Shown here one piece after another: positions 13,392-22,402 of a DNA stretch of 38,417 bases. Where the stretch lies: NCBI GenBank assembly GCA_001819605.1, contig MHNE01000015.1, positions 1 to 38,417 on the forward strand. The letters are read 5' to 3'. A model generated the notes under the pieces. The model was not told the DNA's origin, ran no database searches, and saw nothing but the letters and a program-made list of their open reading frames with translations. The translations under genes were made by a program, and so were the position numbers. This stretch comes from Candidatus Portnoybacteria bacterium RIFCSPLOWO2_01_FULL_43_11. Lineage in GTDB: Bacteria > Patescibacteriota > Minisyncoccia > Portnoybacterales > UBA2143. Within the stretch, counting starts at the first letter, position 1. Every line of letters begins with the position of its first letter.

Positions 13392-13645
13392 TGTAAGAAA
13401 TCCAACCGTTGTTTACATTTCTTGAGAAAAGAGCAGAAAATCTTTTCCCAACCAGCATATTGGAGCAATAGAGACAAATTACCGAAGCGAGCGAGAGGGA
13501 GACCGAAACTGCGGGAGCGAAGCGACCAAATTTCGGAGGGTTCCCCGAAGCGAGCGAGGATAATTTACCTATTGCGAAGATCCGGCTGGCGGGAAAAGAT
13601 TTTCTGCTGAATATAAAAATCTAAACAACACTCGTAATTCTTACA
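13392..13645. repeat. Long palindromic intergenic element A
   Basis: Perfect arms AGCAGAAAATCTTTTCCC (13432-13449) / GGGAAAAGATTTTCTGCT (13591-13608); outer TGTAAGAA/TTCTTACA and GTTGTTT/AAACAAC; inner GCAATAG/CTATTGC, AAATTA/TAATTT, CCGAAA/TTTCGG. Confidence 0.9.
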
Positions 13646-18622: not shown

Positions 18623-19315
18623 TTAATAAATTCTTGATTTAATCACCAACCAAGGAAATACCACAACGGCCTTAAAAATTCTTTTAACGCGCCGTGGCTC
18701 TTGAATCAATCGCCACAGCCATTCCAAACCAATAATCCTTAAAATCTTCGGCGCCCGGGGAATTTGCCCGGCTATAAAATCAAACGCGCCGCCAACGCCC
18801 ATCGCTAATTTAATTAAAGGCATTTTCCCTAAATTTTCAACTATCCATTTTTCCTGCTTTGGGGCGCCAAAAGCGACAAATAAAATACCTTGACTAAAAA
18901 GTACTTCCCGAGCCTCAAACGCCTTAATATTTAACAGGTAGTACTTCTTTTTTAAATTATTTACTACACTTTCCGCCACCCCCTCCCTGCCTCCTAATAA
19001 AAAAACCGGCCAATTTTTTCGGCTGGCCAAATTACAAATACTTTCAATTAAATCAACGCCGGTAATTCTCTGTTTTAAGGGCTGACCCAAAAACCAGGAA
19101 GCAAAAACCAAACCAACACCGTCCGCTACGGCCAAGTCCGCTTGATTCAAAATCTTTTTAAATTCATCGTCATTTTGAGCTTTAACTAAAAATTCCGGAT
19201 TAGCCGTGACAATATAATGCTGTTTTCCGTCCGTCATAAATCGCTCTACTTTTTTTAAGGCCTTGCTTGCGGTTAAATTATCAATTTTAACGTCAAGAAT
19301 CTTTATTTTAAGCAT
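18623..19315 (-). CDS. WecG/TagA/CpsF family glycosyltransferase
   Basis: VTANPEFLVKAQNDDEFKKILNQADLAVADGVGLVFASWFLGQPLKQRITGVDL and FVAFGAPKQEKWI. Confidence 0.93.
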   Translation of the reverse strand: MLKIKILDVKIDNLTASKALKKVERFMTDGKQHYIVTANPEFLVKAQNDDEFKKILNQADLAVADGVGLVFASWFLGQPLKQRITGVDLIESICNLASRKNWPVFLLGGREGVAESVVNNLKKKYYLLNIKAFEAREVLFSQGILFVAFGAPKQEKWIVENLGKMPLIKLAMGVGGAFDFIAGQIPRAPKILRIIGLEWLWRLIQEPRRVKRIFKAVVVFPWLVIKSRIY

Positions 19316-19331
19316 TAATAAATCAAAAGAA

Positions 19332-19514
19332 AGGATAGCTACTTACATTTTGCGAAATTGTGAAGTTTTGGAAACAGATAAACGAGTGGAGTCAGAAGGG
19401 GAGCCCGATGGAGGCCGCCTGAAAGGCGGCCGACATTGGAGGGGCATCCCCCTGACGGAACAAGTATTATCTGTCCAAAACGAAAGTATGAAGTAAAATG
19501 TAAGTAGCTATCCT
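19332..19514. repeat. Long palindromic intergenic element B
   Basis: Perfect 20-bp arms AGGATAGCTACTTACATTTT (19332-19351) / AAAATGTAAGTAGCTATCCT (19495-19514); inner GTTTTGG/CCAAAAC, ACAGATA/TATCTGT, GTCAG/CTGAC, GGCCGCCT-GAA-AGGCGGCC. Confidence 0.93.
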
Positions 19515-20074
19515 CCCAACGGTGTCGATTCTAAAACCACGTACTCCGCCCCATCTCTTAATAATCGGCTCTCCATTACTTCTATTGACTCAACTAAAAA
19601 AGACAAAGAAACTTCCTTTTCTATATTGGGCTTTGAGGGCATTAATCGCCACTCTCTCTGCCTGATTCTCGCCAAAGTAATGTGAGGACGAAAAGCCCGA
19701 ACTTCTTTACGATTGTAACCGCTCTGGTTTGAATCTAATAAATGACCTTCAAAATCATCTTTCAATTCAGCCAAAGCTAAATTTTCCTCCCCCTCCAGCC
19801 AAATTATCCGGGGAGAGCGGCCGGGCGGCCCAAAACAAATCCTTTTTAATTCAATTTCAAATGGTTGATGCCTCCTGCCTGTTTCTTTCGCTGTTTGACA
19901 AACCTCTAACATCTCTTCATCTCCGGCATAGCCGATAAAAACCAAAGTGATGTGAAGACTTTGCTTTTTAGTCCACCTGACCGGCAAGCTCGTCCACTCC
20001 TCTTGCCAATTTAATATTCTTTTCTTAATATATTCCGGCAAATTAATAGCCGCGAAGATCCGTCGTTTTTTCAT
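19508..20074 (-). CDS. thpR: RNA 2',3'-cyclic phosphodiesterase / 2'-5' RNA ligase family (ThpR-like)
   Basis: MKKRRIFAAINLPEYIKKRI, two HxT motifs (LHITLVFIG, RPHITLARI). Start set to 20074 instead of 20209. Confidence 0.9.
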   Translation of the reverse strand: MKKRRIFAAINLPEYIKKRILNWQEEWTSLPVRWTKKQSLHITLVFIGYAGDEEMLEVCQTAKETGRRHQPFEIELKRICFGPPGRSPRIIWLEGEENLALAELKDDFEGHLLDSNQSGYNRKEVRAFRPHITLARIRQREWRLMPSKPNIEKEVSLSFLVESIEVMESRLLRDGAEYVVLESTPLGG

Positions 20075-20876: not shown

Positions 20877-21383
20877 ATGATTATCCCCATCCAAACTAAT
20901 CCTAATAATCCCATTTTACGGCAAAAAGCTAAAGAAGTCAAGGAAATTACCGCTGAAATTAAGCGGCTGATTTTAGATATGGAAGAAACCATGGAGAAAG
21001 CGGCCGGAGTCGGGCTGGCCGCGCCTCAAATTGGCCAATCGCTTCGGGTGCTCGTCGCCAAATCAAATGATGAACCCCGCACCTTTCGCGGACAAAGTAT
21101 TTTTGCGCGAAAACGCGGCCCGCAAAAGGTGCGGGGTGAAATCATCGCTCTGATTAATCCGGAAATTAAAAAATTTTCTCGGAAAAAAGTCGTGATGGAA
21201 GAAGGGTGTTTAAGCTTGCCTAAACAATTCTCTCTTATAGAGCGACCGGCTAAAATTAAAGTAAAAGGATTAACTGAAGAAGGCGAGAAAATTAAAATTA
21301 AAATAAACGGACTCTTAGCGCGGATTATCCAACACGAAATTGACCATTTGGACGGGATTTTAATTATAGATAGAATCAAATGA
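20877..21383 (+). CDS. def: Peptide deformylase
   Basis: GVGLAAPQIGQSLRV, EGCLSLP, IIQHEIDHLDGILIIDRI motifs. Confidence 0.97.
   Translation: MIIPIQTNPNNPILRQKAKEVKEITAEIKRLILDMEETMEKAAGVGLAAPQIGQSLRVLVAKSNDEPRTFRGQSIFARKRGPQKVRGEIIALINPEIKKFSRKKVVMEEGCLSLPKQFSLIERPAKIKVKGLTEEGEKIKIKINGLLARIIQHEIDHLDGILIIDRIK
21069..21146. repeat. In-frame palindromic element inside def
   Basis: ACCCCGCACCTTT (21074-21086) / AAAGGTGCGGGGT (21125-21137) perfect 13 bp; flanking GATGA/TCATC; inner GCGG/CCGC. Confidence 0.85.
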
Positions 21384-22342
21384 AAAAATTAAAAATTATA
21401 TTTATGGGCACCCCGGATTTTGCCGCGCCTGCTCTTAAGCAATTAGTCAGTAATAATTATGAAATTTCAGCGGTGATTACCGCGCCGGACAAACCGATCG
21501 GCAGAAAACAAGAAGTCACTCCCCCGCCCATTAAAAAACTGGCTCTTCAATATAAAATACCAGTTCTTCAGCCAGAAAAAATCTTAAACTCGTCTTGGCC
21601 GAAGCCAGATCTCAAATCTCAAATCTTAAATCTTAATCCTGATTTAATCGTGGTTTCCGCTTATGGAAAAATTATTCCAAAAGAAATTTTGGACATCCCC
21701 CAATACGGCTCTTTAAATATCCACCCTTCGCTTCTGCCTAAATATCGCGGCCCCTCGCCTATTCAATTCGCTATTTTAAACGGCGAAAAAATAACCGGCG
21801 CGACCATTATGCTCATGGACGAAAAAATGGATCACGGCCCGATTCTTGCTCAAGAAAAAATAGAAATTCCGTCAGACGAAACCAGCCAAACGCTTCATGA
21901 TAAATTAGCTCAATTAGGAGCTGATTTACTAATCAAAACTATTCCTCAATATGTTCAAGGCGAAATCAAACCAAAGCCGCAAGATGAAAAAAATGCCAGC
22001 TATACTAAAATATTAACCAGAGAAGACGGAAAAATTGACTGGCGAAAAAGCGCTGAAAGCATTGAACGGCAAATCAGGGCTTTTACTCCCTGGCCCGGGG
22101 CCTGGACCATTGACGGAAAAAGATTAAAAATCCTTAAGGCGAAAGTGGTGGATAAAAAAGACGGATTGACTTTTAAAACCAAAAGGGGTTATTTACTTTT
22201 AGAAATGGTCCAGCCCGAAGGCAAAAAAACAATGAGCGGCGAGGAATTCATAAGAGGTTATGGGCGAGGAAATATGCCCTTGAGCGACATAGAATTGCGA
22301 GCGGGCATGGTGCCGCCGAAGGCGGCGAGCGAGCAATTATAA
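21380..22342 (+). CDS. fmt: Methionyl-tRNA formyltransferase
   Basis: KIIFMGTPDFAAPALKQLV, LNIHPSLLPKYRGPSPIQFAILNGEKITGATIM; ATGA overlap with def. Confidence 0.97.
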   Translation: MKKLKIIFMGTPDFAAPALKQLVSNNYEISAVITAPDKPIGRKQEVTPPPIKKLALQYKIPVLQPEKILNSSWPKPDLKSQILNLNPDLIVVSAYGKIIPKEILDIPQYGSLNIHPSLLPKYRGPSPIQFAILNGEKITGATIMLMDEKMDHGPILAQEKIEIPSDETSQTLHDKLAQLGADLLIKTIPQYVQGEIKPKPQDEKNASYTKILTREDGKIDWRKSAESIERQIRAFTPWPGAWTIDGKRLKILKAKVVDKKDGLTFKTKRGYLLLEMVQPEGKKTMSGEEFIRGYGRGNMPLSDIELRAGMVPPKAASEQL

Positions 22343-22402
22343 CGAGCAAAAATTCTCGCTGGGAATTTTTGCGTTCGCTCAAGGGCATATTTCCTCGCCC
22401 AT
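22260..22402. repeat. Long palindromic element C spanning fmt 3' end and fmt-ychF intergenic region
   Basis: Perfect 28-bp arms ATGGGCGAGGAAATATGCCCTTGAGCGA (22260-22287) / TCGCTCAAGGGCATATTTCCTCGCCCAT (22375-22402); inner GCCGCC-GAA-GGCGGC and GCAAAAATTC/GAATTTTTGC. Confidence 0.95.

Follow-up and report, generated by a model that had tools for sequence, protein, structure and literature searches.

Element B, a 183-bp palindrome between two genes of Candidatus Portnoybacteria bacterium RIFCSPLOWO2_01_FULL_43_11 (genome G000), is probably (we put it at about 55%) a low-copy, non-autonomous mobile foldback element of Parcubacteria, recognized by way of its folded purine strand. We favor this reading because related elements are dispersed, low in copy number, and intergenic, and because the fold of one strand is conserved while the sequence drifts. 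The B family is a previously undescribed group of small hairpin-forming elements between genes in CPR bacteria and is defined by structure, not by a sequence repeat. No account of such CPR elements was found in the open-access literature, which is weak evidence of absence. Sequence searches miss the family almost completely; BLAST rates B as unique, and the family recurs across families of Parcubacteria.

Structure of Element B

The window, the whole 38,417-nt stretch of DNA that was analyzed, contains B, a second member of its family (element C), and a third long palindrome (element A; table 1). The preliminary description of B holds in its main features: the outer arms are perfect complements, further pairs are nested in register, the tip is rich in G and C, and the right arm includes the stop codon of thpR. 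Within the inner hairpin, GTCAG (19391–19395) pairs with CTGAC (19452–19456), and the center is formed by GGCCGCCT/AGGCGGCC around 19413–19431. A repeat search gives an inverted pair of 41 nt at 78%. Folded as RNA, B reaches −99.2 kcal/mol versus −43.3 ± 4.2 for 200 dinucleotide shuffles (z = −13.4), and none of the shuffles is as stable, so that B withstands the comparison with shuffled controls suggested earlier. A 77-aa ORF with a TTG start runs across this stretch, and nothing supports it. Palindromes are common as a class in this genome, with 37 inverted repeats (arms of at least 13 within 320 bp) in 273 kb of G000 versus 4.6 in shuffles.

Table 1. Features of the window in and around elements A, B, and C
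Feature	Coordinates	Strand	Remarks
Element C	13432..13608	.	Second palindrome of the B family
Core of element C	13466..13574	-	Found by model R3, built without C
wecG/tagA-like glycosyltransferase	18623..19315	-	Start 17 bp from B
Element B, whole palindrome	19332..19514	.	183 bp
Left outer arm of B	19332..19351	.	20 bp, perfect; sequence unique to B
Conserved structural core of B	19366..19480	-	Covariance models R1–R3
Stem b of B	19366..19371	.	TTTTGG, pairs with CCAAAA at 19475–19480; covaries across the family
Conserved 2-nt bulge of B	19372..19373	+	AA on the plus strand
Stem c of B	19374..19381	.	ACAGATAA, pairs with TTATCTGT at 19467–19474
Internal loop 2 of B, purine side	19382..19390	+	Opposite 19457–19466; mismatches G.A-rich on the plus strand
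Variable inner hairpin of B	19391..19456	.	Second 2-nt bulge (AA, 19396–19397); GC-rich tip
Right outer arm of B	19495..19514	.	Contains the thpR stop codon (TAG, 19508–19510)
thpR-like 2'-5' RNA ligase	19508..20074	-	Stop codon supplied by B
Element A	22260–22402		Third long palindrome besides B and C

Presence and Absence at Gene Junctions

The thpR-like and wecG/tagA-like genes that flank B are both on the minus strand. Relatives that share this gene order have no B at the junction, which is a gap of 7 bp in G007 and of about 30 bp in G003. The junction in G001, of the same genus, also lacks B and has a different, 26-bp perfect palindrome that likewise supplies the thpR stop codon. The lack of B in relatives implies that it was gained here or else lost repeatedly. 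We considered whether the palindrome in the orthologous gap of G001 marks an insertion hot spot and discounted it, because such palindromes occupy 16 of the 24 gaps in that genome that measure at least 60 bp and a coincidence is therefore expected. Element C is missing from the pbp2–greA junction in G001 and G007. A copy in G290 follows a stretch that is conserved in G217, a member of the same genus, which has an unrelated nested palindrome in its place. No clear target-site duplication was found at sites of the B family, where junctions of copy-free relatives are too diverged.

A Family Recovered by Covariance Models

Neither BLAST nor a pattern with three mismatches found a copy of B in its own genome, 56 relatives, or 387 genomes of the class. 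Matches to the arm pattern with one to three mismatches were rejected as they are not palindromic and are about as frequent as those of reversed controls. One weak BLAST match in G201 (L071, the same as L078) falls inside another palindrome and has both sides of the inner loop of B plus a compensatory stem change. A covariance model (R1) of the cores of these two sequences, in which a short loop stood in for the variable tip, found two more members. A four-sequence model (R2), applied to 38 genomes under laxer filters, added further members, among them five from G217 and two each from G290 and G030. A twelve-sequence model (R3), which scores its training member B at 79.4 bits, matched three elements outside of its training set: L106 in G195 (54.4 bits), L092 in G201 (53.2 bits), and element C (26.1 bits, E = 0.003 in 874 kb, where E-values are rough owing to a short calibration). 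Element C was not detected by R2 and was accepted as a member only after the match to R3, together with two 16-nt blocks, AAATTATCCTCGCTCG and CGCTTCGGTAATTTGT, that it has in common with L106.

Across the genomes searched, the family has 15 members in seven Parcubacteria genomes (five in G217, two each in G000, G201, G290, and G030, and one each in G136 and G195), a count that depends on filters; few of the 387 genomes of the class scored, and laxer filters revealed G136 and G290 among the 38. Carriers other than G136 are multi-contig assemblies, and the parts that were read amount to about 39% of G000 and 36% of G217. Matches at L082, L083, L085, L086, L088, and L094–L096 (16–37 bits) were not counted because the architecture is absent or, by eye, they are AT-rich or plain hairpins. 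On BLAST alone, B has neither copies nor conservation, which the preliminary description had named as grounds for rejecting the element; sequence copies are indeed missing, and the covariance models show conservation. Copies are intergenic, their neighboring genes are unrelated from copy to copy, and their orientation to genes varies, with the purine strand being sense to the next gene in roughly eight copies and antisense in about six, as assigned by eye. Some are located just upstream of start codons, and several (G217d, G217e, G290a, and L078) lie between divergently transcribed genes.

Conserved Anatomy and Strand Bias

In all members, a 6-bp stem and an 8-bp stem are separated by a one-sided 2-nt bulge and accompanied by a purine/pyrimidine internal loop, and B has this architecture, with loop 2 following its 8-bp stem. 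On the minus strand, the order is an outer arm whose sequence is free, internal loop 1, stem b (NNNNGG/CCNNNN), the 2-nt bulge, which lies on the 3' side, stem c (ACAAATAA/TTATTTGT), internal loop 2 (TAYTCGCTC/CTCGCTCAT-like), and a variable inner hairpin that often contains another 2-nt bulge. The sequences of the arms and hairpin tip vary freely among members. In an alignment of the 15 sequences, 97.5% of cells are paired versus 36–48% in slid controls; fitting the alignment to the model biases this figure upward, and the gap in covariation is still large (score of 0.53 vs. 0.04–0.15 in slid versions). Both sides are altered in 11 of 16 pairs, which no shuffle equals, and RNAalifold recovered the same stems from the alignment.

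The fold is conserved on one strand. Both sides of the internal loops are rich in pyrimidines when read on the minus strand and consequently rich in purines on the plus strand. When arms were aligned to each other without strand preference, the purine strand (plus for B) had 100 G.A or A.G mismatches versus 13 C.T or T.C, counts that are not independent events because members are homologous. In 38 unrelated palindromes from these genomes, each scored on its better strand, the bias is far smaller (118 vs. 56). Tandem GA or GAA motifs number 27 on the purine strand versus none on the other. Whether RNA or DNA parameters are used, the purine strand gives the more stable fold in 13 of 15 members, and the difference in energy between strands is larger with RNA parameters. 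In stems, isolated G.T mismatches are about as frequent as isolated A.C mismatches (3:4 in a strict count), so this test does not tell RNA and single-stranded DNA (ssDNA) apart.

A Probable Mobile Foldback Element and Alternatives

We suggest that B inserted into the short thpR–wecG gap, where it now provides the thpR stop codon. What is maintained is the shape of the purine-rich strand and not the sequence: helices stack on one another, with G.A-rich internal loops and one-sided 2-nt bulges between them. This strand may fold into a hairpin while single-stranded during replication, and a putative trans-acting enzyme would read the bulges and G.A pairs and copy or move the element elsewhere, making folded ssDNA the likely substrate of transposition. 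An HMM search found no RAYT in 273 kb of G000 (about 39%) or about 400 kb of G217 (about 36%). This result speaks against mobility, as do the lack of a clear target-site duplication and the fact that copies are few (one to five per genome) and diverged; movement, if any, need not be recent. The MITE-like character guessed at earlier is partly borne out: dispersal, intergenic position, and absence from junctions of relatives support it, but a target-site duplication, a RAYT partner in the sampled portions, and further sequence copies in G000 were looked for and not found.

The main rival to a mobile element is a family of structured non-coding RNAs, in which the purine strand is transcribed, the RNA is functional as a leader or on its own, and copies are paralogues. 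Covariation and conserved bulges are consistent with this, as are tandem G.A pairs, which are typical of RNA helices, the larger energy difference with RNA parameters, and a leader with promoter-like bases that lies upstream of the G290 copy and is conserved in G217. Nevertheless, copies differ in whether the purine strand is sense or antisense to the next gene, the contexts of copies are unrelated, G.T is no commoner than A.C, and no Rfam covariance model matched B at gathering score, and we view an RNA family as unlikely. Of the large structured RNA proposed in the preliminary description, the conserved, covarying, and strand-specific structure stands but a consistent orientation to genes does not. 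Termination of transcription, or stabilization of mRNA ends, between genes is more improbable still. B is a very stable hairpin directly after the thpR stop codon and is followed by a T-rich stretch, TTTCTTTTG, on the minus strand, but a terminator scan had no match at B (a promoter scan likewise found nothing there), a terminator does not need conserved internal loops, and copies also occur between divergent genes and just upstream of start codons. The earlier suggestion of a termination unit lacks support as a function of the family.

Last, the palindrome could have been made in place by template switching during replication and kept perfect by quasi-palindrome correction, with no mobile family involved. 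The outer arms of B are perfect yet unique in the genome, and at this junction the sister species G001 carries another palindrome, although, given how many gaps in G001 carry palindromes, the latter is expected. Template switching leaves unexplained the core common to 15 elements, whose bulges and loops are conserved across families; this core largely refutes it as a full account, which we regard as very improbable, and it may still be a source of arm homogenization.

Comparison with Known Elements

ERIC (IRU) and bcr1-type elements are about 120–180 bp in size, form one long imperfect hairpin, occur between genes in either orientation, are non-coding, and are thought to be non-autonomous. The B family is alike in size, long imperfect hairpin, intergenic location in either orientation, and lack of coding capacity. 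Unlike ERIC, B matched nothing among 20,395 E. coli records, the family has one to five copies per genome, and its sequence is diverged with a covarying structure and strand-specific G.A loops and bulges. ERIC is a presumed MITE (PMC3116915). B has the terminal inverted repeats of a MITE, its perfect 20-bp arms, but not several near-identical copies; it is single by BLAST and by the three-mismatch pattern, and C is related only at the level of structure. REP sequences and REPINs are extragenic, form hairpins in ssDNA, and show compensatory changes (PMC3116915). The B family likewise consists of extragenic hairpins with compensatory changes, but its unit is much larger, it lacks the high copy number of the short REP core, and no RAYT was found in the sampled portions of G000 and G217. 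In phage and plasmid collections, no match was found to the G217c member.

Integron attC sites are imperfect palindromes known by their fold, in which extrahelical bases fix the strand and the tip is variable. The B family is alike in fold, extrahelical bases, and variable tip, a comparison of how the two may work only; no integron boxes, integrase, or cassette array were seen in a comparison by eye, and on present evidence B is probably not a member of this class. Rickettsia palindromic elements are likewise small palindromes of reduced genomes and occur within genes as well as between them, whereas copies of the B family are intergenic. Element A and a palindrome inside def are closer to them in habit.

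More speculatively, CPR bacteria could harbor a new class of mobile elements whose identity resides in a strand-specific fold (tandem G.A pairs and extrahelical bases) and not in sequence, and that are moved as folded ssDNA by a putative enzyme and can nest with other palindromes; we consider this unlikely. If mobile hairpins defined by structure alone are common in CPR bacteria, much "unique" intergenic DNA would be repeat DNA under constraint on folding. The B family offers a test of whether folding of ssDNA drives the spread of foldback elements in streamlined genomes.

Other Palindromes

Element A has 28-bp perfect arms and is multi-copy in G000 (also L008 [C20] and L009 [C8], and partial in L012 and L015). 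It lengthens the fmt protein by ...MPLSDIELRAGMVPPKAASEQL, and its arm resembles a ribosome site plus ATG (GAGGAAATATG). Palindromes that open with ACCCCG (ACCCCGCACC..., ACCCCGTTAGA...) are located at 21074–21137 of the window, L035 10884–10961, L042 18205–18331 and 19042–19102, L038 18018–18120, and L049 1586–1907, with many in G217 (L129–L142). One is in-frame within def, one surrounds a tRNA-Arg gene, and one surrounds an apparent GIY-YIG reading frame.

Three genomes have in common an outer inverted pair, GTAAGAAATC...CGTTGTTTACA (window 13393–13644; L038 920–1085; L047 121–352; L125 1991–2650), that encloses differing hairpins: element C, a REP-like hairpin, or the G136 member of the B family with another palindrome, an arrangement of nested palindromes. 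A palindrome with arms AGAGGTCATTTCAAAA is present in both G000 and G001 (L042 12310–12474; L048 4675–4795) with different inner hairpins. In G003, a REP-like TGTCATCCTGAGCG...GGATCTT...AGAATGACA (L033, about 650–1000) is at the junction that C occupies in the window. G001 has about 800 inverted repeats per Mb with arms of 14 or more, many of them TTTAGGAGC...GCTCCTAAA (L048, L047, L032), and its RAYT-type transposase gene (L048 12460–13176 and nearby) has one such palindrome within it and one just upstream.
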